Origin: a virus | Virus record (IMG/VR): IMGVR_UViG_3300036770_002122 | Coordinates: 29,198 to 93,197 of that record | Reading direction: 5' to 3' (one strand) | DNA length: 64,000 bases | In this document: positions 509-61,141 of the stretch, piece by piece | Layout of the letters: every line of letters begins with the position of its first letter | Position numbering within the stretch: position 1 is the first letter of the stretch | The notes under the pieces: model-generated | What the model was told of the DNA's origin: nothing | Database searches by the model: none | Seen by the model: the letters and a program-made list of their open reading frames with translations, nothing else | Translations under genes and position numbers: made by a program

Positions 509-757
509 ATGCAAAAGCGTACACGTAGTCTGTTGGAAGAACTAGAATCTATAGGTAGTAATAGAGATATTAACCACGTTATTGAAAACAGAGCCAATAA
601 CGTTATCACAAGTGCTATTAATTTAGTAGAATTGATCTATAGAAACTATAGCCCTGAAAAGGCAGAATTATTAGAAAAGAAACTTCTTTCCGCTATTAAG
701 AGTAAAGAGCCTACACGCTTTGCTAAATCGTTGAAGAAGAAACATGAAAATAAATGA
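509..757 (+). CDS. Small conserved-looking helical protein, function unknown
   Basis: 82 residues, charged and predicted mostly helical, with a Lys-rich end (SLKKKHENK). No motif is recognised. It sits directly behind a late promoter box with only seven bases of leader and no SD, and its stop overlaps the next gene by 14 bases, so it is the first gene of a late operon with the genes at 744 and 1532. A virion or assembly role is possible from context only. Confidence 0.6.
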   Translation: MQKRTRSLLEELESIGSNRDINHVIENRANNVITSAINLVELIYRNYSPEKAELLEKKLLSAIKSKEPTRFAKSLKKKHENK

Positions 758-1532
758 AGGCTGGTTTGATAATATAGAAAATCTTTATAAAGGATTTAAA
801 GGAAGTAAAAATACTCCCAAAGGCTTTAGTGCCTTTAAAAACTGGCAAGCAAGACGTAAGAGCGGTTTATCCAAAGAACAGCAATTAGCCTACGATAATT
901 TTGTTAAGAAATTTGTTACTAGCGGTGTTAATGCGATTAACACTGCTGTAAAAGCCGGTCTAGTAGATGTACAATCAGGCAATGTTTCAGGTAGTTATTC
1001 AGTACCTCAAAAGAAACAAAAGGGTACCACAAATCAACAGCAGGCAAAAAAATCATCTGCTAAAACATCAGCCCCTCCCGCTTACAAACCCGTAGTAAGA
1101 AAAGATAAGACAACAGGGGAATGGTTACCTGTTACACTCACATATGACGGTATAAAATATACTAAAACAAATAAAGGTTGGATGGATGATAAAAATCAAC
1201 TTGCAAAGCAGGATTATCAAACACATTTGGATAAAATTTTAGCACAATCTTTAGCAGAAGCCATAGAATATATTAAGATGCAAAGATTATATGAAAATAT
1301 AGTTAGCGAAGCGGTTAAAAGTATATCACAATGGACTAAAGATCACTTTGTTATGCCTTACTTACAAGGCATAGATTTATCTTCAGCATCAGAACAAATC
1401 AATGATATACTTCAAAATTTACCTAACAGTTATGCTAACAATACTTTAGCAGACGATCTTACTAAAATTGCAGATATAGCCTGGGCTATTGAAATGGCTA
1501 CACAAGCAAGAAAAATACCGGGTACATATTAA
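744..1532 (+). CDS. Unknown protein with a possible capsid-targeting N-terminus
   Basis: 262 residues. It begins MKINEGWF, a short basic/hydrophobic start ending in Ile-x-Glu before Gly, which resembles the cleavage context of T4 internal head proteins. The first 90 residues are basic and helical, followed by a low-complexity Gln/Lys/Ser/Pro linker (about residues 90-115), a short WLPVTLTYDGIKYTK beta-rich stretch, and a helical C-terminus. It overlaps the gene before by 14 bases and its stop shares a base with the ATG of the next (TAATG). Family not recognised; a packaged virion protein is inference. Confidence 0.6.
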   Translation: MKINEGWFDNIENLYKGFKGSKNTPKGFSAFKNWQARRKSGLSKEQQLAYDNFVKKFVTSGVNAINTAVKAGLVDVQSGNVSGSYSVPQKKQKGTTNQQQAKKSSAKTSAPPAYKPVVRKDKTTGEWLPVTLTYDGIKYTKTNKGWMDDKNQLAKQDYQTHLDKILAQSLAEAIEYIKMQRLYENIVSEAVKSISQWTKDHFVMPYLQGIDLSSASEQINDILQNLPNSYANNTLADDLTKIADIAWAIEMATQARKIPGTY

Positions 1533-2674
1533 TGTTAGATTTCTTTATAAACACAAGAAAGATTTTAAATGATCTTTTAAGTGAAGCAAAAGGCCATCTA
1601 GATCATCCTGAAGATTTGATTATATTACAGGGTGTGTCGGGTGCAGACAGAGCCATAAATTCTATTATTGCCTGCGCACAATCGCCGCAAGCCATTACTA
1701 TTAAATGGGATGGATATCCGGCGTTGATATTTGGAAGGGGTCCAAATAACAAATTTAGCATTATGGATAAACATATGTTTAACCGTAAAGATGGTATGGG
1801 ACGCCAAATTTATAGCCCGGAAGCATTTGCTGAATATGATAGACAAAGAGGAGTCGACCGTGCAGAACTTACGAATCTCATTAGGAATATCTGGCCCGGC
1901 TTGCAAAAAGCAAGCAAAGGAACAAAAGGCTATTACTGGAGCGACTTACTCTTCAGCCAACCGCTCAAAAGCCAAAAAGGTGTATACAAATTTAAAGCGA
2001 ATCCTAACGGTATAACATATACTGTCGATGTTGATAGTGATGTAGGCCAACTGTTAACTAATAAAATAGCAGGAGTAGCAGTACATCAATTTATTTCTCC
2101 TGATGCAATGTCAACTGATGACGCTCAAAGTTTAGACGGAACATTGGGAGGATTAGTTAATAACAGTGATGTTGCGATAGTTCCTAGTGCGATGCCTATT
2201 GTCCCCAATCTAACAATCGATAAATCTTTAATCGCCGATGCTAAAAAGAAGATATCTAAATATGGGCGAGCAGTTGAAGAATTGCTCAACTCTGCCCCTC
2301 AGGCTCGCAATACGTTCAATCAACTTTTTACAACATACATTAATAAGAAAATTGTATCAAATGATTTGTCTGATTTAAGCAATGACTTTTTGAACTATTT
2401 TGAACAAAGACCCATGACTGCTAGTATGAAGAAAAAATTAGCAGATCATATTAATAACAATAAAGAGGGTATAGTTGGATTATTTACAATTTGGGCAGCA
2501 CTTTACCAACTAAAAATGAATCTAGTAGAACAATTAAATCAGGCTGCAGAACAAAGTCCCGTTAAGGGCTATTTACAGACCGGACAGCAAAGTCAAGAAG
2601 GATTTGTCTGTCAGGGCTTAAAATATGTAGATAGATTAGGATTTAGTCGTCAAAATTTAGCAGCAAAACGCTAG
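1532..2674 (+). CDS. DUF6267-type protein with a ligase-like KWDG motif
   Basis: 380 residues. Residues 55-65 read ITIKWDGYPAL, with Lys58-x-Asp-Gly matching motif I of nucleotidyltransferases and ATP-dependent DNA/RNA ligases, where the Lys carries AMP. A GYYWSDLLF segment and a later TYTVDVDS strand fit the general layout of the conserved phage family I remember as DUF6267. The C-terminal 150 residues are helical. The N-terminus (LLSE before Ala19) could be a prohead-protease site. It closes the 509-2674 operon. Enzymatic activity is not shown; motifs III-V of true ligases are not obvious, so it may be a non-ligase member of the fold. Confidence 0.55.
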   Translation: MLDFFINTRKILNDLLSEAKGHLDHPEDLIILQGVSGADRAINSIIACAQSPQAITIKWDGYPALIFGRGPNNKFSIMDKHMFNRKDGMGRQIYSPEAFAEYDRQRGVDRAELTNLIRNIWPGLQKASKGTKGYYWSDLLFSQPLKSQKGVYKFKANPNGITYTVDVDSDVGQLLTNKIAGVAVHQFISPDAMSTDDAQSLDGTLGGLVNNSDVAIVPSAMPIVPNLTIDKSLIADAKKKISKYGRAVEELLNSAPQARNTFNQLFTTYINKKIVSNDLSDLSNDFLNYFEQRPMTASMKKKLADHINNNKEGIVGLFTIWAALYQLKMNLVEQLNQAAEQSPVKGYLQTGQQSQEGFVCQGLKYVDRLGFSRQNLAAKR

Positions 2675-25029: not shown

Positions 25030-25662
25030 ATGAAAAGCCTAAAACAATACATTGCAGAAAGTGTACATTTATATGATGTAACTATTAAAATTGCCGGAGA
25101 AGTTGATAAAAACTTCCTAGATTTGTTCATTCATAATCTTAAGAAGTTTGATCCAGCAACTCCAATCACACCTAAAACACTTCCTATTGCAAAAGATGCA
25201 TATGGTTTTCCGGGTATGAGCAATGAACCAGTAACAGTGTTGCGTTGCAAATTCCGTTATCCTGCTACAGAACCAATGGTACAACAGTTAGCACAATTAT
25301 TAGGCTATAATGTCAATTATGTACGTTTGGTCAATAGCGAATACGATGATAGCATCAACCGTGAAAGCGAAGAATATGCTAATCAAATGGAGCACAGTCC
25401 TGTATTAACTCACACTGAAATGGAAGATGCGGGTGATGCTGCTAAAAAAGCAAGTAAGGATTATGGTAATTCATATTTAGATAGTATCAAAGCACAAAGT
25501 AAAGACGGTTTTCAAGGCAAAGATTTACAGTTTGATGGAAAGAGAACCCCAGACAGTTTTGATCCATTCAAGCCATACTTAGATGACAAATCAAAGGGTA
25601 ATAAGAGTCCAATGACTAATATTACACGTCCTGCCAAGCCTAAAACAGGCGCAATGGCGTAA
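25030..25662 (+). CDS. Likely internal head protein with capsid-targeting sequence
   Basis: 210 residues. The N-terminus MKSLKQYIAE followed by Ser closely matches the T4 internal-protein targeting peptide MKTYQEFIAE followed by Ala, which directs IPI-IPIII into the prohead and is cut by the gp21 protease. Residues 15-110 form a conserved-looking beta/alpha domain (TIKIAGEVDKNFLDLFIHNL, AYGFPGMSNEPVTVLRC, LAQLLGYNVNYVRLV); the C-terminus is a charged linker. Packaging into the head is inferred from the peptide. It is followed closely by the giant gene at 25674. Confidence 0.65.
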   Translation: MKSLKQYIAESVHLYDVTIKIAGEVDKNFLDLFIHNLKKFDPATPITPKTLPIAKDAYGFPGMSNEPVTVLRCKFRYPATEPMVQQLAQLLGYNVNYVRLVNSEYDDSINRESEEYANQMEHSPVLTHTEMEDAGDAAKKASKDYGNSYLDSIKAQSKDGFQGKDLQFDGKRTPDSFDPFKPYLDDKSKGNKSPMTNITRPAKPKTGAMA

Positions 25663-25673
25663 GAGGTTTTATC

Positions 25674-28600
25674 ATGGAATTTAAGAAATTTTTAGAATTA
25701 GTAAATGAGGCTGAGTCAACAGCCGAAAAAGATGATAAAGCCAAAAAAGCAGGCGAAGAAGTCACTAAAGATATTGAATATGATGAAGGTCATAAAGGTA
25801 GTGATGACGAACGTGCTGAAAAAGCAGGCAAAAAAGTTGCCGCTGATATCAGATACGATGATAAGAAAGATAAAAAGAAATCATTAAAAGAATATTTTGA
25901 AGAAACTGAACAAGAAATTATTAATGAAGGTCAGTTTCCTATTCCAGTAGTTGGTCCAGACAATAAACCAATTGCTGGCCAATCAGGCTTTTTAAACGTA
26001 AGTGTTCCAGGACAAGCAGGCGTAGCAGTCAATGACATGCTGCGTAGATTAGGTGCAAGAGGTTTAAGTATAATTCTTCCACCAAATAGAATTCAACAGC
26101 AGCAACAGCAACAAGCATTGGCTGCTGCTAAAAGAGCATCTGTACAAACTTCAGGCAAACAAGTTGCTGAAGAAACTGTAGATGAAGGCATTGATGATGT
26201 TGTCAAATTAGGTACAAAGTACGGCGACGATATTGCTAAACAATTTAGTAACTTTGCTAGCGGATTTAAAAATCCACAAGGTGCAATGAATTTACCAAAT
26301 CAATCATTAGCATCAAAAGCAGGTGCAGCAACATCAAGAGGCGGTCCTGCAATAGGGGCAGGCGCCGGTGCAGCAGGCATGGCTGCATTAGGTGGTGACG
26401 ATAAACCTGCAGCAGATAATAAACCGGCAGCCGTCGCAGCAGACAATAAACCAGCAGCAGCGGCACCCGCTGCACCAGAGGCTCCTGCTGCTCCAGCAGA
26501 GCCTGTCGCTCCAGAGGCACCTGCTGTAGATACAGCACCTCCTGCTCCACCATCTGACGAAATTGATAGAATTCAACAATTGGCTGGTATGAGCGATGAA
26601 GAAAAATATGGTAAGGTAGGAGCAGAGATTCGTAAATTAGATCCTGAAGCCTATAAAAATAGACCAAGAGATTATCAAGGTAATATTGATTTATTAAACA
26701 AGTTAAGAGCGCAAAAAGCAGATGACACCACTGCACCACCTGCAGCAGATACTAAAGCAGATGATAAGCCAGCAGACGCAAAGGCTGATGAAAAACCAGC
26801 AGATGCAGCAGACGCAAGTGATGAATTAGAACCTGTAACTGTTACCGGTAAGAGAACACAACCTGCTGATCAAGATAAAGAAGGTGACGCTGAATTAGGT
26901 CGTTTACTAAATTTATCTGGCGCAAATACCTATGATGAATTAGGTAATTGGTTAAAGAATAGAGATAAGCCTGCAGGAAGCACTGAAGAACCAAAAGCAG
27001 CAGAGCCGGCAAAAGAACCAGAATCAAAACCTGAAGAACCAGCCGTTGACGCAGCAGGGGAAGAACCAGCCGTTGACGCCGCCGGCGAAGAACCAGCACC
27101 CGCTGCTGCAATTGAACCTAAAACTTCTTATAGAGTTGTTGATCCGTCGACCGGCAGAGCAAGAAATGTTTCAAAAGAAAAATATGATCAAATGGTTGCA
27201 AGAGGCCAAATTGATAAAGATAAAGGTTTAGACTATCAATTTAAAGTCAGAGACCCAGATGGTTCAATTAGAACAGTAAAACAAGGTGATCCAGATTGGC
27301 AGAAGTATGCTGATCAGGCAGAAAAAACTGTAGCATCAAATTACAATCAATTACAAGGCGAACCAGAAGGCGAAGAAGGCGAAGAAGGCGAAGAGAAATC
27401 AGGTAGACCAAGTTTGTTTAGAAGATTATTCAACATCGGCAAAGACGATGAAGGTTATTATCTAGGTAAAAAGCGCGGTCGTGATAATGCTCCAGATGAT
27501 ACTGAAGAAAAGTCAGAACTATCTGAAGGTAAACTTGCTGAAAAGTGGGAAGGCGATGTTAAAGTTGAACCAACTGGCGAGTATAAAAATAAAACAAAAG
27601 CACAATTACAGGCAATGTTGGCACGACTACATAAAACTGGTCCTCATAAGAAGGGCAGCAAAGAAGCCAAACAGCAAAGTCAAATTAATTTTGCATTACG
27701 TGCCAAAGGTGGTTGGAAGAAAGGTGAAGGCGCAGCAATGAAATCTGTAGAAGAAGATGCTACAGCAGCACAGCCAAGCAAACTACAGCAAAGACATCAA
27801 GATAACTTTGCTGCTAAACAACAAGCAGCACATAGTAAACAAGATAGTCAAGCAAAAGATTATCTAGCATCAAAAGGTGTAAGCGATCAAAATGCAGCAA
27901 AACTAATGGCTAAACCAATGAGAGAAGAAAAAGTCGATGAAAAGTTTGCAAGCCAACAGCAAGCAAAATTAATGTACGCAGCAGCAGGCGATAAAAAAGT
28001 CGCAAAGAAAACTGGCGTAAGTCAAGACGTAGCAAAAGAATTTATTAAAAAGAGTCATGGGCAGAAAGTAAGCAAACTACCCAAGAAAGTAAAAGAAGCA
28101 GAAATTCCAAAGTCAGGCCCAGATTATGGTGCAGGATTAGGCGCTGGTCGCAGCGACAACGTATTGGAGGCAAAGCCGGATTTCATCGATCTTGATAAAG
28201 ACGGTGATAAGAAAGAATCAATGAAGAAGGCAGCAGCCGACAAAAAGAAAAAGAAGGTAAATGAATCTATGAGCAATCTATTAAAAGCAGCATATAGCGA
28301 AGGCTATGTACACGGTCTACGTGAGCAACCATGCCGCGTAAAACACTACCAAGATATGGAAGAAGCAAAGCATTACTTTGAAGGTTACAAATGTGGCCTA
28401 GAAGAATGCTATGGACTCGTTCCAGGTCGCGGCTATGTTGACGAAGAATCATCACAAGATGTTGTAGACAACATGGCAAGTTTCGGTGCAGTAGGTGTTG
28501 AAGAAAATACTAATCAAAACATGGCAGCAGTTCCCGTGCAGAAGGCACAGGCTGGTCAAGTAAACACTTCAGCAACCAATCCTGCTCCGCAACAAAATGT

Positions 28601-43167: not shown

Positions 43168-43710
43168 ATGACTAAGCAATTAAATGAAGGACTGGACTAT
43201 CATGATATGAAAGGCATGATAGACCCTACTGTATCAGTAGATGAATATGCTGCTAGAATGGGCGAAGATAGCGATGTTGTTACACTTAGTTTTATTGTTA
43301 ACAGTCATCTTGCTGCTGACGATCTAGTAAGTTGGTTAGAATTAGGTTATGATTTTATATTAGATGCTAGTGTTAGTGAAGGCGAATTAGAACCAAACAA
43401 ATGGTTAGTATTCGTAGAAATGAAACGTAGATCAAACGTACCAAATAAAATTTTAGAAATATTAAAAGATTTAGAAACATTAACTGATATAGGATTAAAA
43501 GATTGGGAAATTAAAGTTGACGACAGCACACATGATGCTAATTTAGATGTATTAAAACAAGTTATAATAACTAACCCTAACCAATATAAAATAGAAAAGG
43601 GAAATGAAGAAGAATTAAATGAAATGCGTCAAATAGCAGGATTAGAAAATAAAAAAGTTTACGAGATTGATGACGAAATTAGAAAGTTTATAACTAACGC
43701 AGGTTTGTAA
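43168..43710 (+). CDS. Conserved virion-type protein, possible capsid-targeting start
   Basis: 180 residues. It starts MTKQLNE before Gly, a possible short targeting peptide. The core (TLSFIVNSHLAADDLVSWLE, YDFILDASVSEGELEPNKWL, VFVEMKRRSN) is a conserved pattern in T4-like marine phages, often near head genes. It starts eleven bases after the 42569 gene and ends one base before the repeat adhesin gene, so the three are one operon. Confidence 0.6.
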   Translation: MTKQLNEGLDYHDMKGMIDPTVSVDEYAARMGEDSDVVTLSFIVNSHLAADDLVSWLELGYDFILDASVSEGELEPNKWLVFVEMKRRSNVPNKILEILKDLETLTDIGLKDWEIKVDDSTHDANLDVLKQVIITNPNQYKIEKGNEEELNEMRQIAGLENKKVYEIDDEIRKFITNAGL

Positions 43711-45659: not shown

Positions 45660-46445
45660 ATGGATTACTATGCTGTGTTAGGCGTAACAAAAACTGCAAC
45701 GCCTGATGAAATAAAAAAAGCCTATCGTAAGTTAGCAAGTCAACATCATCCTGACAAGGGCGGTGATACCACTAAGTTCCAAGAAATACAAACTGCATAC
45801 GACACATTAAGCGACTCGCAAAAACGTGCCATGTACGATAATCCTCAACCGCAGGGTTTTCCTGGAGGATTTAGTTTTAATATGGGCCCGGGTATGGATA
45901 TCAATGAGATATTTGGGCAGATGTTTAATCAACAGTTTGGACATAGACCACAAAGACAGGTATATCGCACACAAGTAATAGTTTCATTGGTAGAAGCATA
46001 TAATGGAACAAATAAAATCTTAGAGTTAAACACCAACAGTGAAAAGAAGGTTATTGACATTAAAGTTCCTAAAGGTGTTAATTCCGGCGATCAATTGCGT
46101 TATGATAATGTATTAGATGGTGCATCACTATTAATAGAATTTAACGTCATGCCCGATCTACGATTTGAACGTAGAGGATCCGATTTATTTTGCAACTATA
46201 GTATAGATATACTAGACTTAATTGTGGGTACAAATATAGAATTTACAACTATATCTAATAAAAAATTGAACGTGACTATCAAACCCAAAACACAACCATA
46301 TATGCAAGTAAAACTAGCCGGTCAAGGTATGCCAGTTGCCAATAGCAACTTGTACGGAGACCAATACATATTGCTAAAACCCTATATTCCTGATAATATA
46401 GATCAAGAAATAATTGATAGTATTTTACGCAATCGTACAAAATAA
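45660..46445 (+). CDS. DnaJ-like co-chaperone, class B (CbpA type)
   Basis: 261 residues. The J-domain (residues 2-62) has YYAVLGVTKTATPDEIKKAY and the essential HPD motif (QHHPDKGG). A Gly/Phe-rich linker (residues 62-90) follows, then two C-terminal beta domains (VIVSLVEAYNG, IDIKVPKGVNSGD, VKLAGQGMPV). The zinc-finger region of class A DnaJ is absent. It should recruit substrate to and stimulate host DnaK. It has its own leaderless early promoter, directly before the ClpA gene. Confidence 0.92.
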   Translation: MDYYAVLGVTKTATPDEIKKAYRKLASQHHPDKGGDTTKFQEIQTAYDTLSDSQKRAMYDNPQPQGFPGGFSFNMGPGMDINEIFGQMFNQQFGHRPQRQVYRTQVIVSLVEAYNGTNKILELNTNSEKKVIDIKVPKGVNSGDQLRYDNVLDGASLLIEFNVMPDLRFERRGSDLFCNYSIDILDLIVGTNIEFTTISNKKLNVTIKPKTQPYMQVKLAGQGMPVANSNLYGDQYILLKPYIPDNIDQEIIDSILRNRTK

Positions 46446-46448
46446 ATA
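46441..46448 (+). promoter_or_regulatory. Late promoter-like box (AATAAATA)
   Basis: AATAAATA overlaps the DnaJ stop, 15 bases before the ClpA ATG; GAGAGGATT is the SD. It may be chance. Confidence 0.35.
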
Positions 46449-46463
46449 TTTTTAGAGAGGATT

Positions 46464-52087: not shown

Positions 52088-53269
52088 ATGAAATTTAATG
52101 AAATATTTGAAAGTACAGTCGCAGGTTCAGTAGCGTCAGTAGCAAAACCATTAGGCGAACTTCAAACAAGAAGCGAAACTCCACCTAAAAGTCCTAAAGT
52201 TATAAAAAACAAAAAGAAGTACGCTAATCAAATCAGCGAAAGTAAAATGAAAGATTTGGCCTATGATATTCAGCATTTAGATGCAGGAAACTTCATGAAA
52301 AAGTATGGTCAACCTAAAGATTATTTTACTAAAAAGTTAGGTAAACCTCCTGTAAGTGAAGCAGAGTTACAAGAAGATGATTTAATTGTGTTACCTGGCA
52401 TGCGCCGCATGAAAGATACTAGTTTTATTCCGCATGATAAAGATCGTCGTGACCATGAAGTAGAAATGGCACGTAGCGAACTATATGCTGCTGCTAAAGA
52501 TGCAATGCGTATCTATAAGATTATAGAAAATCGTACAGAAGATGAAGGTCTAATGGGTTGGCAGCAATCATATATCACACTCGCTAGTGATTATCTAAAC
52601 AGTGTAGCAGATAGTTTAGAACATCATGCAGCCACAGAAGGTGCAGGTGTTATTGCAGGTGGACAAGTTCAAGAGATTAGTGACTTCAAGCGTAGAGAAA
52701 TTGAGCAAGAGTTACGTCACGAAAAAAATAATTATGCTGTAGCAATAGACGGCAAAGTATGGAAAATTTTTCCTGATCAACAGCAAGCAAATAATATAGC
52801 ACGCTCACTGCAAAGAAAGGGTAAGAAGGCAACAGTACATTTAGCCGAGGCAAGAAGAGACCATTATACAACTAGAGTTGATGACGAAGGAAACGTAGTC
52901 AAAGTATATCCACCTAGCGGTCCAAAAACACAAAAGGCTTATGTCAAATCATTAGTCAAAAATTTAGGTTCATCACATATTGGTAAACGCGGTGAAAGCC
53001 CAAGAGGCGATAAAGTAGGCAAAGGTGCTAACCTAAAAGGAAGTGCAGTTGCTAAACTAAGTGGCGGAATGTCTAAAGTTGCTGAAGAAAAATGCCCACA
53101 CTGTGGCGGCGAATTAGTAGATGAATCATTGATGAATGAAAAGAAAGATGCTTGTTATAGCAAAGTAAAGAGCCGTTATAAAGTTTGGCCCTCAGCATAC
53201 GCAAGCGGCGCATTAGTCAAGTGCCGTAAAGTTGGTGCAAGTAACTGGGGCAACAAGAGTAAAAAATGA
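52088..53269 (+). CDS. Likely packaged protein with Cys modules
   Basis: 393 residues from ATG 52088; a TTG five codons upstream would spoil the N-terminus. It starts MKFNEIFE before Ser, a T4-like targeting peptide. Helical regions follow (residues 60-190), then a zinc ribbon-like CPHCGGEL and a conserved-looking DACYSKVKSRYKVWPS ... ASGALVKCRKVGASNWG module at the C-terminus, a paired-Cys unit I recall from several marine phage proteins. No enzyme signature. It heads a late operon; packaging is inferred from the N-terminus and its neighbours. Confidence 0.6.
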   Translation: MKFNEIFESTVAGSVASVAKPLGELQTRSETPPKSPKVIKNKKKYANQISESKMKDLAYDIQHLDAGNFMKKYGQPKDYFTKKLGKPPVSEAELQEDDLIVLPGMRRMKDTSFIPHDKDRRDHEVEMARSELYAAAKDAMRIYKIIENRTEDEGLMGWQQSYITLASDYLNSVADSLEHHAATEGAGVIAGGQVQEISDFKRREIEQELRHEKNNYAVAIDGKVWKIFPDQQQANNIARSLQRKGKKATVHLAEARRDHYTTRVDDEGNVVKVYPPSGPKTQKAYVKSLVKNLGSSHIGKRGESPRGDKVGKGANLKGSAVAKLSGGMSKVAEEKCPHCGGELVDESLMNEKKDACYSKVKSRYKVWPSAYASGALVKCRKVGASNWGNKSKK

Positions 53270-53631
53270 GATATCGTCAAATACTAGAAGCATGTTGGAA
53301 AGGATACACACAGAAAGGCATGAAGTCTAAAGGTGGTCGTATGGTTCCAAACTGTGTTCCAGTAAGTGAACAAGAATTAGAAGAAGATTTACGCAAATGG
53401 TTCAAAGAAAAGTGGGTTCGTTTTGGACCAGACGGAAAGATTCGAGGTGATTGTGCTAGAGGCAGTAGTAGCGAGGGCAAGCCAAAGTGTTTGCCACAGA
53501 GTAAGGCACATAGTTTAGGAAAGAAAGGTCGAGCAAGCGCAGCAGCACGAAAGCGCAGAGAAGATCCTAATCCAGAACGTAGTGGCAAAGCAAAGAATGT
53601 GGCAACTAAAAGTAGCAGAGATAAAAAATGA
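53266..53631 (+). CDS. Small basic protein with Cys modules, likely packaged
   Basis: 121 residues. It begins MRYRQILE before Ala, another possible cleavage peptide, then CWKGYTQKGMKSKGGRMVPN with a second Cys, a KWVRFGPDGKIRGDCARGSS module, and a very basic end (KKGRASAAARKRREDPNPE). Strong positive charge fits binding to DNA in the head. It overlaps the 52088 gene by four bases (ATGA) and the next gene by four. Confidence 0.6.
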   Translation: MRYRQILEACWKGYTQKGMKSKGGRMVPNCVPVSEQELEEDLRKWFKEKWVRFGPDGKIRGDCARGSSSEGKPKCLPQSKAHSLGKKGRASAAARKRREDPNPERSGKAKNVATKSSRDKK

Positions 53632-56600
53632 GTAAAATTTTTGAAGGTCTAGACAAAGCAGCATCACGCCAAATACAAAATATTGTGCGTCAAAACCCTA
53701 AAGGTAGTGCTGACGAAAAAATGCTATTACAGCGTTATATAAAGACACCAATAGTTCAAGATTTTAACTTATCTCCTGAAGAATGGATAGGTCAGGCAAC
53801 AAAGTGGTTAGCAAGTAATCAAAATGATATTAAGAAAAACTATCCTGATGTTGATACAAGCGATCTAATTGATTTAGCAACTAAAATGTATGAAGATTTT
53901 CTTGCAATGCAAGGACAATTAGAAGAAGCACGCTGGAAAGGCAAAGTTATTGGCGGAATTACAGGTGGTCCGTTAGGAGCATTGGCAGCAGATCAAATTG
54001 AAAAATATATGAATGACCCTGAATATGCAGCGCAGGTTAATAAAAAATTTAGCGATTTAGTCAATGCAGCGAAGGGTAAGGCTCCAGATACGGCAGCACC
54101 TACTGCCTCACAAGCAGCAGAAAAACCAGCTGCAATACCTACAAAAGATAAACCAAGAGCAAGAGTTAATCCAGAAACAGGTGCGTTAGAACCTGTTAAA
54201 ACAACTCAGCCGGCATCAACAAAAACAACTAAACCAAAAGCAACTAAACCAAAAGCAACTAAAAAACCTACACCGTCTGTTGAACCACCACAAACTTTAG
54301 GACAGCAGATAGGTAAAAAAGGTTATGAACCTGATGTTCGTACTTGGAGAAACGTAGGTGACAAGGCTAGTGATGTAGCAAAGGTTGCTAGCAAGACACC
54401 AATTGGTAGAAAACTAGCAGGTTTAGGCGCAGCAGCAGGTATAGTTGGCGGAATCGGTTCACAAATGTATGCGGGTATAGAAGATAAGTTTAAAGAATTA
54501 ATCGGTAAAGATGCCGATAAACCAAAACCTGCACAAGCAGAAATTCCTCCTAACAAACCAGCCGCAAGTGCGCCAAATAAAGTTGAGACACCTCCTCCCC
54601 CACCACAATCATCTCAACCAGCAGTTGAACCTGAAAGTGATATTTTAGGTGCACCGGGAGCCGACACAGCAGAACGCACTACGCCTTTAGACGGACCAAC
54701 CGGTGGCACACCTCCAATAGGTACATCGTCAGAACCAGATATTTTAGGCGCGCCAGGTGCAGATGTTTCTGAACCAAATAGTCCTATCGATAGAGATAGA
54801 TCAAGAGATAGATCAACAGACGCAGTAATACCACAAAGACCAAAAAAGATTGAATACGATCAGCCCGAAATGCCATTTGAAAATACAGATGCAGTCGCAG
54901 TTCCCCAACCAACAGGCGGTGCTGTTAAGAAAGTAGCAAAAACTGTAGGTAAGGGAATTTTACCTGCTGCAACAGCATTAACTGTTGGCGATGATTACAA
55001 AGATTTACAAAAACGATTAGGTAGTAAAGATTATACAGGGGCAGCATTAAGAGGTGTTGCAACTACTACTGGTCTTATACCTCATTTGGGCGCACAAGCA
55101 GTATCAGCAGGTGCAGAAGGATTACTGGCTATGAAAGATAATCCTGAATATTTTAAAAATTATAAGCCAACTAGTTCAATTGGTAGAGGCATTAAAGAAG
55201 GCTACAGCGCAGGTGCAGTTGGTGGTACTGGATTAGGCGAGGGGGATAAACCACCTAAAGCAGGCTTCAATAAAAACCCGCACAAAGTAGGTCCAGGAAC
55301 TAGTAAAGACGATTACGAATATAAAAACTTTATTCCACGTGATAGAAAAGAAAAAGGCGAAGAGTGGGCAATTGCTAGAGATATCAAAAACGTAAACAGT
55401 AGATTAGGAAAGAAAAAGCCAAAAGAATTGAACACAGGTTTTTATAAAAACTATCTAGGCAATCGCCCAATACGAGAAGAAGAAATTGACGAGGCAGGTG
55501 GTCGTTTAGGTGCAATCAATACTGTAGCACAATTGTTTAAATCAATTGCTAAAGGTGGTGACCCTGTTGATATGGATATTCAACAGAGACAAATGAATGC
55601 ATTAATGCGCAAATATAATATTGATTATAAAGACATAGGTATTAAAAAACCTGCTGCTCAAACACCAAAACAAACAGCAAGTCCTGACATGAAGCCGGGT
55701 CAATATAAAACATGGGATCAAACACTTCCATCATTTGACGATGTACCTGCTGCAGGACAATATAAAACATGGATGCCAGATCCTTTAGAAGAAGTTAGTA
55801 ACTTTTTAGCATTGAAACAAAGAGACAACGAATTCAAAAAAATATTTGGTACTACTCCATTATACAAAGAAGGTGATAAAATAATCACAAAATTTAGTGA
55901 CACAACACCTAACTTTAAAGGTACAGTTGTGAATTTTGATGAAAAAACAAGAAAAACTACTATTAAAGGAGAAGATGGTACATTGTATTTTGTACATGCT
56001 CAAAACTTACAAAAAGTAAAAGAAACTATTAATACCCCGGGTGGTATGGGTCAAGCATATCGTAAACTAAAATTAAAACCTGATGAAATGGATGAAGGTA
56101 TTGCCGGCGCAGTTAAAAGTGGCACAAAGCGTATTGCTACTATGCGTAAATATTTTGCCGGTGACGAAACTGCGAAAGATCCAACAGATACAAGTATTCA
56201 ACGTGCTTGGTTCGCTGATCCTAAAAATCAATCACAGTTACAACCTAAGACAAATCAACAACCACAACCAGTAAAGGAATATGATGCAAATTTGATTAGT
56301 CAAATTGCAGCAGCAAATCAAATTAAAAATCCTGATTTAATTTATCCAGGACAAAAAATTACATTGCCATCTGGGGACAGTTATACTGTACAAAAAGGTG
56401 ATACATTAGGTGATATCGTTTATAATCGTAATAGGCCAGCAGTACAAGAGCCGGTCATCGCTCAACCTAAAATTGAAGTGCCTAAAGAAGTTCCTGTTAT
56501 AGAACCTAAGGCAGAACCACGTATCAGCAACAGATATCCTGATAGCGGTGTAAGTTCTGATAGTAAGTTTGTTGATGTTAGAAACAATCCAGGAAACTTA

Positions 56601-57275
56601 CGAGGTACAGATGCATTACGCAAACCAGGATATGTATTAGATAAAGCAGTTGGGTTTGATAAGAATGGATTTGCTATATTTAATAGTCCTGAAGATGGTA
56701 AAGAAGCAATGCGTAGACAACTAGAATTAGATGCATTGAAAAGGGGTATGACTGGTAGACAATTGATCAATAAATATGCCCCACCAAGTGACAACAATGA
56801 CACTGACGCATATATAAAAAATACTTTTGGTGAATTAGGATTAGATCCTGATAGTAAGATCAGTCCAGAAGATTTAGAAAAAATTCAACGTTTGATGGTT
56901 AGACAAGAGCATGGCAAAGAAGGCATGAATTTTTACTATCCACAACGTAGACAAATGGTAGCAAAGGTGAACGAAATGGAAATATTACAAAAATTTTTAG
57001 ATAAGAATATTGAAAAGGGTGCAGAAAAATTAGCACAAAAAGAAAAAGAAAAGGCTGCTAAAGAAAGACCAATACCAAATCCTAATGCAGAATATCAAGG
57101 TCCTAAATCAGCAGCATATGATATCAGTTTGCGTAAGCAAAGTGTTGATCCTGTTGATGTTGCAATGGCAGCACTTCCTAAAGATATTGAAGATGCTAAA
57201 AAGTTAAAGCAACAAGCAGGACAGGCACCAAAAGAAAGTTCAATATTAAAAGGAATTAAAGGACACAAATTTTGA
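53628..57275 (+). CDS. Large virion peptidoglycan hydrolase-like protein
   Basis: 1215 residues, starting MSKIFE before Gly. Residues 1-110 are helical; 150-560 are Pro/Ala/Lys linkers with repeated ILGAPGAD units. A beta domain like KOW/SH3 (KGTVVNFDEKTRKTTIKGED) is near 760-805. Residues 885-935 contain a C-terminal LysM half (NQIKNPDLIYPGQKITLP) followed by an N-terminal LysM half (YTVQKGDTLGDIVYNRN). About 983-1110 is a lysozyme-like domain I recall from phage virions (NNPGNLRG, GFAIFNSPEDGKEAMRRQL, NKYAPPSDNNDTDAY). It could locally open the wall during DNA entry. Confidence 0.6.
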   Translation: MSKIFEGLDKAASRQIQNIVRQNPKGSADEKMLLQRYIKTPIVQDFNLSPEEWIGQATKWLASNQNDIKKNYPDVDTSDLIDLATKMYEDFLAMQGQLEEARWKGKVIGGITGGPLGALAADQIEKYMNDPEYAAQVNKKFSDLVNAAKGKAPDTAAPTASQAAEKPAAIPTKDKPRARVNPETGALEPVKTTQPASTKTTKPKATKPKATKKPTPSVEPPQTLGQQIGKKGYEPDVRTWRNVGDKASDVAKVASKTPIGRKLAGLGAAAGIVGGIGSQMYAGIEDKFKELIGKDADKPKPAQAEIPPNKPAASAPNKVETPPPPPQSSQPAVEPESDILGAPGADTAERTTPLDGPTGGTPPIGTSSEPDILGAPGADVSEPNSPIDRDRSRDRSTDAVIPQRPKKIEYDQPEMPFENTDAVAVPQPTGGAVKKVAKTVGKGILPAATALTVGDDYKDLQKRLGSKDYTGAALRGVATTTGLIPHLGAQAVSAGAEGLLAMKDNPEYFKNYKPTSSIGRGIKEGYSAGAVGGTGLGEGDKPPKAGFNKNPHKVGPGTSKDDYEYKNFIPRDRKEKGEEWAIARDIKNVNSRLGKKKPKELNTGFYKNYLGNRPIREEEIDEAGGRLGAINTVAQLFKSIAKGGDPVDMDIQQRQMNALMRKYNIDYKDIGIKKPAAQTPKQTASPDMKPGQYKTWDQTLPSFDDVPAAGQYKTWMPDPLEEVSNFLALKQRDNEFKKIFGTTPLYKEGDKIITKFSDTTPNFKGTVVNFDEKTRKTTIKGEDGTLYFVHAQNLQKVKETINTPGGMGQAYRKLKLKPDEMDEGIAGAVKSGTKRIATMRKYFAGDETAKDPTDTSIQRAWFADPKNQSQLQPKTNQQPQPVKEYDANLISQIAAANQIKNPDLIYPGQKITLPSGDSYTVQKGDTLGDIVYNRNRPAVQEPVIAQPKIEVPKEVPVIEPKAEPRISNRYPDSGVSSDSKFVDVRNNPGNLRGTDALRKPGYVLDKAVGFDKNGFAIFNSPEDGKEAMRRQLELDALKRGMTGRQLINKYAPPSDNNDTDAYIKNTFGELGLDPDSKISPEDLEKIQRLMVRQEHGKEGMNFYYPQRRQMVAKVNEMEILQKFLDKNIEKGAEKLAQKEKEKAAKERPIPNPNAEYQGPKSAAYDISLRKQSVDPVDVAMAALPKDIEDAKKLKQQAGQAPKESSILKGIKGHKF

Positions 57276-57430
57276 CACACTTAAGTGAAAATAATATAAG
57301 TTATTTTGCTCATTTAAAAAGAGCATGGCGTTGGGCATTTATATTATTAGTACATGGAATATTTCCAGAAATTTGGAAAACAAAAGTAAGTGATGAAATT
57401 TGTAAAAAAGATCAGGGGAATAACAAATGA
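57272..57430 (+). CDS. Small membrane protein, DUF6356-like (TTG start)
   Basis: 52 residues starting at TTG 57272, overlapping the stop of the previous gene. The pattern HLKRAWRWAFILLVHGIFPEIW followed by KVSDEIC is that of a short phage membrane protein (one hydrophobic helix and a PEIW-type end) that I associate with DUF6356. Its TGA overlaps the ATG of the next ORF. The function is unknown. Confidence 0.6.
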   Translation: MTHLSENNISYFAHLKRAWRWAFILLVHGIFPEIWKTKVSDEICKKDQGNNK

Positions 57431-57546
57431 GACATTATAAATTTGAAGTACAATGCAAAAGTGGTCAAATTAAAGTATTTGAATGCGATGCAATAAATTT
57501 CCGTGAAGCAAGAAAATTGATGGACGCATTTATACAGGTAAACTGA
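57427..57546 (+). CDS. Small unknown protein (39 residues)
   Basis: Short ORF from ATG 57427, coupled to the previous one (ATGA) and one base before the Dps gene. Sequence MRHYKFEVQCKSGQIKVFEC ends FIQVN: a small beta/alpha unit with two Cys. Translation is likely from its tight position. No function is recognised. Confidence 0.55.
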   Translation: MRHYKFEVQCKSGQIKVFECDAINFREARKLMDAFIQVN

Positions 57547-57547
57547 C

Positions 57548-57988
57548 ATGTTAGCAGACAAATTAAAAGTATTATTAGCAAGTTCATATGCTTTTGTTAT
57601 TAAGGCACAGTATTTTCATTGGAATGTTGAAGGTCCAAACTTCCCGCAATACCATAAATTTTTCGGTAAATTATACGAAGAAGTTTATGCAAGTTTAGAT
57701 CAAACAGCAGAATACATTCGTATACTTGATAGTTATACACCGGGTAGTTTTGAGCGTTACAAAGAATTATCAATACTTCCCGATCAAACTATGGTACCAC
57801 GTGCTGAACTTATGTTTGCTGAATTGCAGAGCGACAACGAATTATTATTAAGTTTATTACAAGAATGCTTTGTCATAGCCGGTGAAGAGAATCAAAGAGG
57901 CATTGAAAATTATCTAGCAGAACGAATTGATGCTCATGGCAAACATGGTTGGATGATTAAGAGCGTTCTTAAAAAAGATAGACAGTAA
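57548..57988 (+). CDS. dps: Dps-like ferritin-family protein
   Basis: 146 residues, normal Dps length. The ferritin-like four-helix bundle is visible; residues 20-50 read AQYFHWNVEGPNFPQYHKFF ... YEEVYASLDQTAE, with the HWNV and the downstream Asp/Glu that form the interface iron site. Dps binds iron, guards DNA from peroxide, and sometimes condenses DNA. It could protect phage DNA or handle iron with the IscA-like protein; both are inference. It sits inside the cluster of possible packaged proteins. Confidence 0.85.
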   Translation: MLADKLKVLLASSYAFVIKAQYFHWNVEGPNFPQYHKFFGKLYEEVYASLDQTAEYIRILDSYTPGSFERYKELSILPDQTMVPRAELMFAELQSDNELLLSLLQECFVIAGEENQRGIENYLAERIDAHGKHGWMIKSVLKKDRQ

Positions 57989-57992
57989 TGAA

Positions 57993-58565
57993 ATGCGCAT
58001 ACGTGATCTTACTAATGAGGCAAGTCCAAATACACTAGAAGGAAGTTTAACAGACGATCTAGTGACTAGTAAGCAATGGTTGGCAAATAAGTTAAAAGAA
58101 GGTTTAGGTAATAAATGCGCAAGAACTATCTATGTATTAGGTAGTTGGTATGGTAATCTAGCATATATCTTACAAAAAGCCGGCATCGTCTTTGATCATA
58201 TCGTATTGATAGATATTGACGATAAAGTATTAAAGACCAGCGAACGTTTATTAAGACCATTATTTAATAATGGTCAATTAATATTTTTACATACAGATGC
58301 CAAAGATGTAGTTTATGATAAACCCGGTATAGTAATCAACACAAGCATCAATGATATGAGTACAGATTGGTACGATGCTGTGCCAGAAGGTATGCCGGTC
58401 GTTGTCCAAGGTCGTGATAGTGTCAGTGGTAGTAAAACTAAAATTGCTGATATGGAACAGTTTGATGATATGTTTCCAATGACTAGCATAAACTATCTAG
58501 GTAAAAAAGAACTGGAAGATCCAGAAACAGATTACACTCGCTATATGAAGATTGGTAGAAAATAA
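57993..58565 (+). CDS. Methyltransferase-fold protein, likely packaged
   Basis: 190 residues. It begins MRIRDLTNE before Ala, matching the targeting-peptide pattern. The core is a SAM-type Rossmann fold: TIYVLGSWYGNLAYILQ (motif I), HIVLIDIDDKVL (motif II, acidic end) and GIVINTSINDMSTDW (motif IV-like). The substrate is unknown. It starts four bases after the Dps gene and overlaps the kinase-like gene by one base. Methyl transfer to a host or phage molecule after injection is an inference from the N-terminus. Confidence 0.6.
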   Translation: MRIRDLTNEASPNTLEGSLTDDLVTSKQWLANKLKEGLGNKCARTIYVLGSWYGNLAYILQKAGIVFDHIVLIDIDDKVLKTSERLLRPLFNNGQLIFLHTDAKDVVYDKPGIVINTSINDMSTDWYDAVPEGMPVVVQGRDSVSGSKTKIADMEQFDDMFPMTSINYLGKKELEDPETDYTRYMKIGRK

Positions 58566-59290
58566 TGCGTAGTAATGAATTCATATCAGAAAAATGGTCT
58601 GCGAAGTACAAGCGCAGTATCAACTGTAACAATCCAAAAGGATTCAGTCAACGTGCCCATTGTCAAGGACGTAAGAAAACTAATGAAGAATCAGTTGACG
58701 AAGTACGCAGGGATAAATTGGGTAAAGATGTCAATGCTAGATTTCGTGATGCAGGCTATAAAAAAGTAGGATCGGGCATAGATGCAAACGTATGGATGAA
58801 AGATTTGGGTACCGTAGTAAAAGTAATTATGCCCGAACTTGACCCAGATATGAGCATCAATCGTATGCAGACGTTTTATCAGTTTGCTAAACAACATCCA
58901 GAAATAGAAAATTTGCCCAGATTTAAAAAAGTAAACGGACGAGAGTTTTTAAAGTTTAATTTGGGTGGCGTTCCATTTATACAGTTTAATATGGAACAAC
59001 TTTATCCCATTAAAAAGGGCTCATTGGATGAATATGTTGTATGGTTTTTGTCGGGAGAGATTGACAAAAGTTGGAATACAGCATATAATAACTTAATTAA
59101 TTTTCCAGATTTTCGTAAAAAATTCAAAAACATCGACCTTGATAGTTTACAGACATACAAGAAGTTTTTTCAAGTGTTTAGTTTGCTTTACAAATTAGGT
59201 AGAAAAAACAAGTGGGGTTGGGATGCACATACTGAAAACGTGATGAAACGCGGTGACGGCACATTAGTCGTTACTGATCCCTGGGCATAA
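58565..59290 (+). CDS. Kinase-like protein with capsid-targeting-type start
   Basis: 241 residues. It starts MRSNEFISE before Lys, the T4 internal-protein pattern, then a Cys module (INCNNPKGFSQRAHCQGRKK, residues 19-38). From residue 65 it has a kinase-like layout: GSGIDANVW (Gly loop), VVKVIMP (beta-3 Lys), then near the end WDAHTENV (catalytic Asp220 and Asn225) and VVTDPW (Asp238, DFG-like). The protein stops three residues after Asp238, so a C-lobe is missing. It could phosphorylate a protein or small molecule, or be a non-catalytic relative. Confidence 0.6.
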   Translation: MRSNEFISEKWSAKYKRSINCNNPKGFSQRAHCQGRKKTNEESVDEVRRDKLGKDVNARFRDAGYKKVGSGIDANVWMKDLGTVVKVIMPELDPDMSINRMQTFYQFAKQHPEIENLPRFKKVNGREFLKFNLGGVPFIQFNMEQLYPIKKGSLDEYVVWFLSGEIDKSWNTAYNNLINFPDFRKKFKNIDLDSLQTYKKFFQVFSLLYKLGRKNKWGWDAHTENVMKRGDGTLVVTDPWA

Positions 59291-59293
59291 ATA
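59286..59293 (+). promoter_or_regulatory. T4-type late promoter (CATAAATA)
   Basis: CATAAATA overlaps the kinase-like stop, 24 bases before the ATG at 59318; TTGAGGAA is the SD. Confidence 0.55.
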
Positions 59294-59317
59294 TATACAT
59301 ATAGTTGAGGAATTATT

Positions 59318-59707
59318 ATGAAGATTTTTGAAGTTATTGAAGCAAAGAAACTTGCAGGAAGTCAGGATGATCTTGACGATGTTATGGATAAGCCAGAAGA
59401 TCCAGATGCTGATAAAGTTCCTCACATTTTAATGCAATTGCGTAAAGCATTGGATGTTGACGGTAATTATCCTATTACTTTTAAAGATGGTAAGAAAGCA
59501 AAGTTGGGTATGCCTGAAATTGTTATGTTTGTCAAAAAGTATATGGGTCTAAATCCACAAGACAAAGAAGCATTACAAACACAAGCAAGTAATAGTCTAG
59601 AAGGCTTCATGGCTGCACTAAAGCAAGATTTCAAGAAACCAGAACTACCAAAAATCAAGGGTAGTCGTTATATGACTGGCTTTGCAGGAGACTTAGACGA
59701 CAAATGA
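59318..59707 (+). CDS. Unknown protein with capsid-targeting-type start
   Basis: 129 residues. It begins MKIFEVIE before Ala, then a highly acidic stretch (DDLDDVMDKPEDPDADK), followed by a helical domain (PHILMQLRKALDVDGNYPI, EIVMFVKKYMGLNPQDKEAL). This is a common phage layout that I recall without a function. It is coupled to the secreted nuclease gene by a four-base overlap. Confidence 0.6.
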   Translation: MKIFEVIEAKKLAGSQDDLDDVMDKPEDPDADKVPHILMQLRKALDVDGNYPITFKDGKKAKLGMPEIVMFVKKYMGLNPQDKEALQTQASNSLEGFMAALKQDFKKPELPKIKGSRYMTGFAGDLDDK

Positions 59708-60132
59708 AAAAGTTACTAATTTTGGCATTAGCCGCATTATCAGCGAGTGTATCAGCACAAACTCTATACAACTATAAAGTTGTCAAGGTAAGTGACGGTG
59801 ACACAATACAGTTTGAAGCACCATTTATGCAACAATATCTAGGTCTAAAGCCAGTATTGGCATTGCGTGTATTGGGTGTTGACACACCAGAGAAAGGTGG
59901 TCGCGCACAATGTCCTAGTGAAAATGAACTAGCACAAAAGGCTAGCGCATTCACTAAAGATGCGGTAGCAAAAGCAAAGACAATTCAATTTGAAATCAAA
60001 GACCACGATAAGTTTGGTGGTCGTGTATTGGGCGATGTATTTGTAGACGGCCAACGTTTATCAGAACTATTGATCAAAAATGGTTATGCCCGTGCTTACT
60101 TTGGTGAAAAGAAGCAGAGTTGGTGTAACTAA
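59704..60132 (+). CDS. Secreted staphylococcal nuclease-like protein
   Basis: 142 residues. A clear signal peptide (MKKLLILALAALSASVSAQ, cut after SVSA) leads an SNase fold: YKVVKVSDGDTIQFEAP, LRVLGVDTPEKGG (catalytic Arg and Asp), DHDKFGGRVLGDVFVDGQ and LIKNGYARAYFG. It would be exported and cut nucleic acid in the periplasm or outside. Two Cys, one of them two residues from the C-terminus, could form a disulfide. Possible jobs: recycle host DNA, or destroy competing incoming DNA. Confidence 0.85.
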   Translation: MKKLLILALAALSASVSAQTLYNYKVVKVSDGDTIQFEAPFMQQYLGLKPVLALRVLGVDTPEKGGRAQCPSENELAQKASAFTKDAVAKAKTIQFEIKDHDKFGGRVLGDVFVDGQRLSELLIKNGYARAYFGEKKQSWCN

Positions 60133-60146
60133 TAGGAGATTCTATT

Positions 60147-60290
60147 ATGTTAGAAACACTATTTTGGATACTAGTCGGTGCATTCATTGGTTGGAACTTC
60201 CCTCAACCTAGTTTTGCAAAATCATTTCAAGAAAAATATTTGCAAAAACATATTGATAAAGTAAAAGCATTTTTACCTTTCTTCAAATAA
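60147..60290 (+). CDS. Small membrane protein (47 residues)
   Basis: Starts at ATG 60147 with AGGAGA ten bases before. The N-terminal 18 residues (MLETLFWILVGAFIGWNF) form one hydrophobic segment, followed by a Lys-rich amphipathic end (LQKHIDKVKAFLPFFK). A single-helix membrane protein, possibly lysis-related or a small inhibitor. No family is recognised. Confidence 0.55.
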   Translation: MLETLFWILVGAFIGWNFPQPSFAKSFQEKYLQKHIDKVKAFLPFFK

Positions 60291-60294
60291 GTTA

Positions 60295-60323
60295 TTGACT
60301 TTATAATAGTGTGATCATATAAT
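60295..60323 (+). promoter_or_regulatory. Sigma70 early promoter (TTGACT-17-TATAAT)
   Basis: TTGACT at 60295-60300, a 17-base spacer and a perfect TATAAT at 60318-60323, then six bases to the ATG at 60330; one of the clearest promoters here, with a predicted leaderless mRNA. Confidence 0.8.
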
Positions 60324-60329
60324 AACTAT

Positions 60330-60548
60330 ATGAATCACAAACCTAAACAACTCACTAAAAAAGTTTATGAAATTGCCCTCAATGCAGGGGGCAGTTTTTA
60401 CCCCGAAGTCAATACTGACACACTACAAAGATTTGCCGAAGGCATTATAGAAGAATGCGCTAAAGTTGCTGCTAGCGACCATCACTATCCTTACAAAGAT
60501 TTCGGTGACAAGATTCGCGCACATTTTGGACTAAAGGATTACGTATGA
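60330..60548 (+). CDS. Small phage protein of a common type, unknown function
   Basis: 72 residues. The pattern LQRFAEGIIEECAKVAASD ... KIRAHFGL is widespread in small phage and prophage proteins with unknown role. It is the first gene of an early operon with 60545, 60745 and 60833, which overlap one another. Confidence 0.6.
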   Translation: MNHKPKQLTKKVYEIALNAGGSFYPEVNTDTLQRFAEGIIEECAKVAASDHHYPYKDFGDKIRAHFGLKDYV

Positions 60549-60748
60549 CAACTATTATTGCTGAACCAGAATTCAAATTCAAAGTAGGCGACTTTGTTCG
60601 CAAAGTTGGCGGCAGTTATCAAGCCGATGGCTTTATTGTAGGCATCGCTGTGACTACAATGGGTCAGGTACGATATGTATTTGAGTTTGAAACATTTCCG
60701 GGCATGTTACATATCTTCAACGAGAGTCAGTTAGAAAAGAAATTATGA
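60545..60748 (+). CDS. Small SH3-like protein, unknown function
   Basis: 67 residues, beta-rich (FKVGDFVRKVGGSYQADGFI, VRYVFEF, MLHIFNESQL), resembling small SH3-barrel phage proteins. It overlaps the previous stop and the next ATG (ATGA) by four bases each. Confidence 0.55.
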   Translation: MTTIIAEPEFKFKVGDFVRKVGGSYQADGFIVGIAVTTMGQVRYVFEFETFPGMLHIFNESQLEKKL

Positions 60749-60849
60749 AAAATTTGCTTCAATATAAAGTAAAATATAAAACTTTTGTAGTAATTATCTT
60801 ATCAATAACCTTGCTATTAGGACTATTAGTGTATGTTAGTCAGGCCTAA
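60745..60849 (+). CDS. Tiny membrane protein (34 residues)
   Basis: ATG 60745 overlaps the stop of the previous gene. MKNLLQYKVKYKTFVVI, then a hydrophobic helix (ILSITLLLGLLVYV), then SQA. A basic N-terminus before one transmembrane helix. Coupled on both sides, so likely real. Function unknown. Confidence 0.5.
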   Translation: MKNLLQYKVKYKTFVVIILSITLLLGLLVYVSQA

Positions 60850-61003
60850 GCCAGAGTGGGACGATCTTGATATCTATGATCGTGAGGCTGCTGAAATACG
60901 CAGGGCTTTGCGTCAAATTGATTTAGAACAATGGGTACAAGATTTATCTACACTTGACCCTGAATTGTTTAGTCAACTAAAACATAAACTAAACAAATAC
61001 TGA
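60833..61003 (+). CDS. Small acidic helical protein (56 residues)
   Basis: ATG 60833 lies inside the end of the 60745 ORF, in another frame. Sequence starts MLVRPKPEWDDLDIYDREAA and is helical and acidic throughout, ending KHKLNKY. Likely the last gene of the early operon. Function unknown. Confidence 0.5.
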   Translation: MLVRPKPEWDDLDIYDREAAEIRRALRQIDLEQWVQDLSTLDPELFSQLKHKLNKY

Positions 61004-61024
61004 TATATTTCATATCCATATTAT

Positions 61025-61032
61025 CATAAATA
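61025..61032 (+). promoter_or_regulatory. T4-type late promoter (CATAAATA)
   Basis: CATAAATATTACTATA, 105 bases before the 61138 gene. The leader carries a hairpin and a short ORF. Confidence 0.55.
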
Positions 61033-61047
61033 TTACTATATAAAAGT

Positions 61048-61079
61048 CTATCCTAACTAATAAAAATAATAAGGGATAG
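61048..61079 (+). promoter_or_regulatory. Leader hairpin covering an SD
   Basis: CTATCC (61048-61053) pairs with GGATAG (61074-61079); the right arm contains the SD-like AAGGGATAG for the leader ORF at 61082. The pairing would hide that SD. Confidence 0.4.
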
Positions 61080-61081
61080 CA

Positions 61082-61141
61082 TTGAGTCGTTGCTGGATCC
61101 ATAACTGGGCGAAGCGAAGGCGTATAGGAATATTACAATGA
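61082..61141 (+). CDS. Possible 19-residue leader peptide ORF (TTG start)
   Basis: TTG 61082 with AAGGGA upstream opens a reading frame MSRCWIHNWAKRRRIGILQ whose TGA overlaps the ATG at 61138 (ATGA), so translation could be coupled to the Asn/Thr-rich protein. Cys/Trp and Arg-rich content is striking, but chance cannot be excluded. Confidence 0.35.
   Translation: MSRCWIHNWAKRRRIGILQ

Follow-up and report, generated by a model that had tools for sequence, protein, structure and literature searches.

Beyond a few models, the proteins that phages inject besides their DNA are mostly unknown. In T4, the internal proteins IPI, IPII and IPIII bear an N-terminal capsid targeting sequence that is cut by the protease gp21; genetics of IPIII assigned residues 4 and 7 to targeting and residues 8 and 10 to processing (PMC9026906). 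Here we describe similar N-termini in a 64,000-nucleotide stretch of DNA (hereafter the window), which is the last 64 kb of the 93,197-base IMG/VR record IMGVR_UViG_3300036770_002122 and comes from an uncultured giant phage. Six of the eight genes between window positions 52088 and 59707 open with a short run of basic and hydrophobic residues that ends in Glu, which we call a tag, and starts of the same type lie at 744, 1532, 25030, 25674 and 43168 (genes are named by first position; a slash marks the predicted cut). We consider it likely that these shared N-termini are T4-like capsid-targeting propeptides, removed by a protease, on packaged effectors.

Like the T4 sequence, the window tags are N-terminal and basic-hydrophobic and place x-Glu before a small residue, and the core EFI-x-E-A is identical in many relatives. 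The tag MKSLKQYIAE/ of a 210-residue protein (25030..25059; all window features listed here are on the plus strand) fits all four functional T4 positions. It was the single exact match in the window to the strict T4 template (hydrophobic residues 4, 7 and 8 plus Glu 10), the other tags being shifted or shorter. Judged by sequence, membership of the T4 family is exact for 25030 alone; the other tags are predicted to work alike. Unlike in T4, window-type tags front far more diverse cargo, and many of the proteins carry additional internal joints. Virions of the cyanophage S-CREM2 contain an S-adenosylmethionine (SAM) hydrolase, an APH-like kinase and a cytidylyltransferase, for which the authors could not exclude contamination (PMC10665884). 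The window resembles S-CREM2 and S-CRM01, with their virion-associated kinases and cytidylyltransferase, in that the enzymes are phage-encoded, and the T4 template also fits the N-termini in S-CREM2; their kinases belong to another family than 58565, and the part of that paper on which we draw reports no tag (PMC10665884). P1 DarB and the polyvalent proteins likewise have effector domains (ADP-ribosyltransferase (ART) and others) that are packaged in the head and delivered (PMC9024508, PMC5512222), and we found ART-PolyVal domains behind window-type tags in two loci (L160 and L105). The polyvalent proteins differ in having internal peptidase domains or signals not yet known, and no consensus N-terminus was found for the Dar proteins (PMC9024508, PMC5512222); a Pfam scan of tagged window proteins detected no peptidase domain in them. 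In phiKZ-like phages such as SPN3US, several head proteins are cut after Glu (A/S-x-E) by a prohead protease and many proteins are ejected, with propeptides mostly over 100 residues long (PMC5694885), whereas the window tags have 5-18 residues. Our search of open-licence papers on capsid targeting and cyanophages turned up a T4 review alone.

We propose that the tag would draw each tagged protein into the assembling prohead core of the infected cell, where a gp21-type prohead protease would cut after the x-x-Glu of the tag and free the cargo inside the head. The protease would often cut further x-x-Glu joints within the tagged proteins. At infection, the matured enzymes would leave the head with the DNA, as would small basic Cys peptides. 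In the window, this cargo would comprise a protein with a SAM-methyltransferase fold, a T7 gp0.7-like kinase, a LysM/endolysin-like protein, a DUF6267 protein and head-associated proteins. Targeting, cleavage and ejection in the window phage are what we infer; by analogy with T4 and P1, the tagged proteins are probably ejected into the host.

The computations yielded a motif excess, conservation of the tags, exchange of the bodies behind them, a fold or family assignment for two enzymes, and an association of tags with the virion proteome in cultured phages. All N-termini listed in the preliminary description were present, each in an open reading frame with an upstream Shine-Dalgarno sequence. 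Start-site calls differ for two of them: in the reading-frame list, 52088 begins further upstream with a TTG (52073), and the gene caller had 53266 begin at an ATG inside it. For both, conservation in relatives backs the ATG that bears the tag. With the 57993 protein as query, we retrieved seven related loci. The Glu before the predicted cut was kept in every orthologue comparison that reached the N-terminus, down to 37-41% identity, while its neighbours varied within hydrophobic classes. The one exception is the 1215-residue protein 53628 (gene 53628-57275), whose tag MSKIFE/ (53628..53645) is conserved in L003 and L004 and whose entire N-terminus is replaced in L005.

The 393-residue modular protein 52088 (gene 52088-53269) bears MKFNEIFE/ (52088..52111), and its orthologues in L003, L004 and L005 keep the Glu, with MKVNDIFE and MKIKDIYE as variants. 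The 121-residue protein 53266 (gene 53266-53631; tag MRYRQILE/, 53266..53289) has counterparts in L004 (MRHRQLLE) and L005 (MRYRHLLE) with the same tag and a different module behind it. For the 190-residue protein 57993 (gene 57993-58565), the tag MRIRDLTNE/ (57993..58019) becomes MPIQSLVKE or MRITQITE in homologues, and Glu9 is invariant in eight of them. The 241-residue kinase 58565 (gene 58565-59290) bears MRSNEFISE/ (58565..58591); in the same slot, L005 and L006 have MRADEFIQE or MRANEFIQE before a P-loop/zeta-like kinase (PF13671, 2e-12 in L006). The tag MKIFEVIE/ (59318..59341) of a 129-residue protein of no known function (gene 59318-59707) is identical in L003-L006, with bodies down to 54% identity. 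L004 has an extra tagged gene inserted (MRNYINIIE), and the tagged genes of L007 have other content. The untagged exceptions in the cluster are a 52-residue frame and a Dps-like protein (57548-57988; 'DNA binding protein' PHROG, 1.8e-28), the position of which is conserved in close relatives. Beyond the window's end, four relatives have a very basic tagged gene with the start MR..EFITE/RKKKR (L003:17605, L004:18040, L005:19211 and L006:10895).

Outside the cluster, the 1647-residue A/E/P-rich protein 25674 opens with MEFKKFLELVNE/ (25674..25709), and its counterpart on a sister contig with MEFKKFLQIVNE. The 380-residue DUF6267 protein 1532 (PF19782, 1.3e-37), absent from the preliminary list, starts with MLDFFINTRKILNDLLSE/A (1532..1585), a long tag resembling that of T4 IPI. 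The preliminary description had listed 744, 25674 and 43168 as possible members. For the 180-residue protein 43168, the probable tag MTKQLNE/ (43168..43188) gained support from a head-and-packaging PHROG match (phrog_13138, 3e-20) and from a 37% identical homologue in which QLNE reads QLSE/G. The possible short tag MKINE/ of 744 (744..758) is present and its Glu is kept in the sister contig (MKISE/G); it is the weakest case (MKINE/G) and could be accidental.

We scanned exact DNA patterns over 2.9 million viral contigs, with permuted patterns as controls. MRxxEFIxEA occurred in 102 viral stretches, as against four for the control (same codons, Glu shifted by one place), and the proteins behind it that reached 60 residues or more, 92 in all, fell into 28 unrelated body clusters. 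By Pfam, these bodies include SLT and M23 lytic enzymes, cytidylyltransferase, GNAT and ART-PolyVal, with the SLT, GNAT and ART matches near or under the Pfam cut-offs, and DUF6267 was recognized by eye; a small protein without assigned function makes up the biggest cluster, with 37 members. For the T4-like pattern MKxFxxFIxEA, 112 of the 123 control matches listed were FIEEA, which fits both pattern and control, so that exclusive matches alone were compared: at least 112 against at least 11 for the permuted control. At least 35 body clusters stood behind it, with adenylate kinase (1e-40), GNAT, AAA_33 and DUF6267 among them. DUF6267 also stands behind MKSFKSFITE/A (L188), and a DUF6267-like protein, identified by eye, behind MRSEEFIVE/A (L097). 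An ART-PolyVal protein (2.5e-15) in a 328-kb contig starts with MFNFKEFLTE.

Cultured phages allowed a comparison of tags with virion proteomes. For the Pseudomonas jumbo phage PA5oct, whose record flags the proteins detected by electrospray ionization tandem mass spectrometry, the pattern Phi-x-E-[AGS] (Phi, a hydrophobic residue) was fixed before the phage was examined, with the position range widened to 5-14. Nine of the 13 tagged proteins were detected, against 84/369 untagged ones (odds ratio 7.6, p=6e-4). In S-CREM2, the SAM hydrolase (MKDFDSFLEE), the kinase (MKRFDAFLTE) and the cytidylyltransferase (gp154, MKNFSSFLTE) share the form MKxFxxFLxE, which is the T4 template. This strict template matched 6/198 S-CREM2 genes, five of which are in the virion proteome (p=0.002); the test was made after these N-termini were seen, with template positions taken from T4. 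Homologous kinases of S-CRM01, S-N03, MA01 and S-B68 retain a Glu-ended tag. As a control, the template matched IPII, IPIII and gp24 alone in a 50-kb stretch of T4, all of them gp21 substrates. Another virion-detected S-CREM2 protein (L177:7704-10313, minus strand; 'Cas9' by annotation only) has LRFASFMAE/A near residue 25, after MTSRWSNW, and homologues of its neighbouring gene in four cyanophages retain SRW..W...SF[IL]xE/A.

The nature of the cargo bears on whether it acts on the host. It is conceivable, and in our judgement unlikely, that the tags are docking and cleavage signals for the prohead core on structural or scaffold cargo (core proteins, DNA-condensing peptides) that remains in the head or exits it with no action on the host. 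Matches to 'head and packaging' PHROGs were found for 43168, 25674 ('virion structural, head and packaging', 1.9e-6), 53628 (phrog_873, 'head and packaging, endolysin', 1.9e-18) and an 896-residue protein at L001:5949; the first three may be head-core or structural proteins instead of effectors. The Cys modules described below are small and basic, as are T4 internal peptides, and the T4 vertex protein also has such a site. Against a purely structural cargo stand the tagged enzymes. The AlphaFold2 model of 57993 (mean predicted local distance difference test (pLDDT) score 88.6) matched SAM methyltransferases in Foldseek (E~1e-8) with a Rossmann-type fold, and residues 1-10 scored below 50, as for a disordered tag before a folded body; by fold, 57993 is a putative class I SAM methyltransferase. 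The 58565 protein matched phrog_15752 (T7 gp0.7-like kinase) at 9e-7 and its homologues did so at 1e-9 and 2e-10. Its kinase residues K86, D220, N225 and D238 are invariant in five sequences, and the protein is predicted to be a T7 gp0.7-like kinase; its AlphaFold2 model (pLDDT 52) was too poor for fold assignment. ART, adenylate kinase, GNAT and M23 domains stand behind tags elsewhere. The enzyme labels of the preliminary description thus held in part: methyltransferase fold and kinase stood, and 53628 gave LysM (Pfam, 1.6e-7) and endolysin-like matches. Of its proposal of shared delivery, head targeting is well supported by the excess over control scans, the two proteomes, the exchange of bodies and the disordered 57993 tag.

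Short basic Cys modules, shuffled between proteins and found again in cyanophages with up to 93% identity, form part of three tagged proteins. The first, KKDACYSKVKSRYKVWPSAYASGALVKCRK..., follows SLMNE/ at the C-terminus of 52088 (53141..53266); copies 90-93% identical occur in cyanophages, with x-x-E at most four residues upstream in nine of 13 occurrences. The second, ACWKGYTQKGMKSKGGRMVPNCVPV, lies immediately behind the tag of 53266 (53290..53364) and its PHROG matches fall in the interior of other phage proteins. The third, KWSAKYKRSINCNNPKGFSQRAHCQGRKKTNE/, lies between the tag and the kinase of 58565 (58592..58687) with an x-x-E joint on either side. In L006 this third module is fused to the rear of a P-loop enzyme and in L005 it closes a separate gene; it also occurs in 17 cyanophage records. 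Among the loci compared, a joint came before the module in 16/27, 10/12 and 9/13 cases; the background rate was 0.14-0.17. When giant proteins were shuffled, the 896-residue L001 protein (p~0.003), 744 and 52088 alone stood out with a joint excess, and 25674 showed no significant excess (p=0.07). By analogy with the internal peptides of T4, the basic Cys modules would be cut apart in the prohead. Shortly after gp16, gene 101 of cyanophage Syn19 (L173:5449-6612) encodes repeated basic Cys modules, several preceded by x-N-E, and its product resembles a polyprotein made up of small head peptides.

Alternatively, chance or a translational-start preference in a Lys/Glu-rich proteome might account for the short x-x-Glu starts, or for some of them. 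Among the 111 called genes, with E at residues 5-12 and internal positions of the same proteins as expectation, Phi-x-E-[AGSK] was observed 13 times against 5.5 expected (p=0.002). With [AGS] after E the figures were 12 and 3.9 (p=0.0003), and with the narrowest alphabet 9 and 3.1 (p=0.003). The 2-3-fold excess agrees with the pattern claimed in the preliminary description; the motif alphabet was derived from the same genes, which makes these p values optimistic, and we therefore sought tests on independent sequences. About 4-5 matches are expected in 111 genes, so that a number of the listed starts may have arisen by accident, 744 being the prime candidate. Given how far the patterns exceed their permuted controls in public contigs, the Glu conserved in diverged orthologues and the proteome association, we regard chance as a quite improbable explanation of the set. 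Scarcely credible is recruitment of uncut proteins to another assembly site such as tail or baseplate: tagged genes do have tail and late genes around them and 53628 has tape-measure/endolysin PHROG matches, but the tags of relatives are identical to the T4 internal-protein core EFIxE/A and the invariant position is the Glu required by the T4 protease.

Several points weigh against reading the tags as cleaved propeptides on effectors. Most window tags have 6-9 residues, below the 10 of T4, and some of the proteins with tags may belong to the scaffold or the tail. The strict T4 template was not enriched in PA5oct (0/1 in the virion), and Phi-x-E-[AGS] was not significant in S-CREM2 (2/5, p=0.30); the tag pattern had to vary from phage to phage. 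As a general tag detector, Phi-Phi-x-E failed in PA5oct (p=0.79) and was rejected. Association with a proteome does not demonstrate cleavage, and the cutting enzyme of the window phage itself is unseen on its own contig or the sister.

The preliminary description had pointed to a gp21-like protease elsewhere in the genome. With Pfam and PA5oct proteins as queries, we found neither an S77 protease nor gp23 (major capsid protein) on the 93-kb contig or on sister records, including a 150-kb contig whose terminase is 95% identical to that of the window. We therefore take the 93-kb record to be a fragment, and since both contigs are fragments, the failed search proves no absence. The large terminase of the window phage is of T4 type, 50% identical to that of PA5oct and also related to those of Atu_ph07 and GAP32; no near-identical DNA was found among named phages. 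An S77 (gp21-type) protease is encoded by PA5oct, and a PA5oct-type protease by contigs with ~55% identical terminases. In PA5oct, ~40 kb separate the protease block from the terminase, a distance that would explain why the protease is missing from the window contig. S77 proteases were present in 7/21 large tagged contigs.

Other genes of the window include adjacent DnaJ-like and ClpA-like chaperone genes (45660-48725), in the same order as in PA5oct, and a protein of near-identical tandem repeats (KAIFGYG...TNLVSNTGVV; 43712-44656). After a nuclease-like protein with a signal-peptide-like start (59704-62685), the region up to the contig end (62682-64000) encodes N/T-rich proteins and long ones of low complexity, which start in a similar way.

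That otherwise unrelated genes of the window phage share such a start suggests that it brings a kit of ready-made enzymes into the host together with its DNA; related tags stand on many enzymes of uncultured phages. We give even chances to a broader proposal, that a plug-in delivery code is common to uncultured T4-related and jumbo phages. In this code, a head tag of 6-18 residues plus x-x-Glu joints would make any late gene head cargo, including polyproteins from which several enzymes and small basic Cys peptides are cut. If this is true, the injected effector repertoire of uncultured phages could be listed from sequence alone, and a readable tag would turn the question of injected proteins into a sequence search. 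Such a tag would explain the kinases and nucleotidyltransferases in cyanophage virions. It would also flag many unstudied proteins that act within minutes of infection and are likely to serve counter-defence and host take-over.

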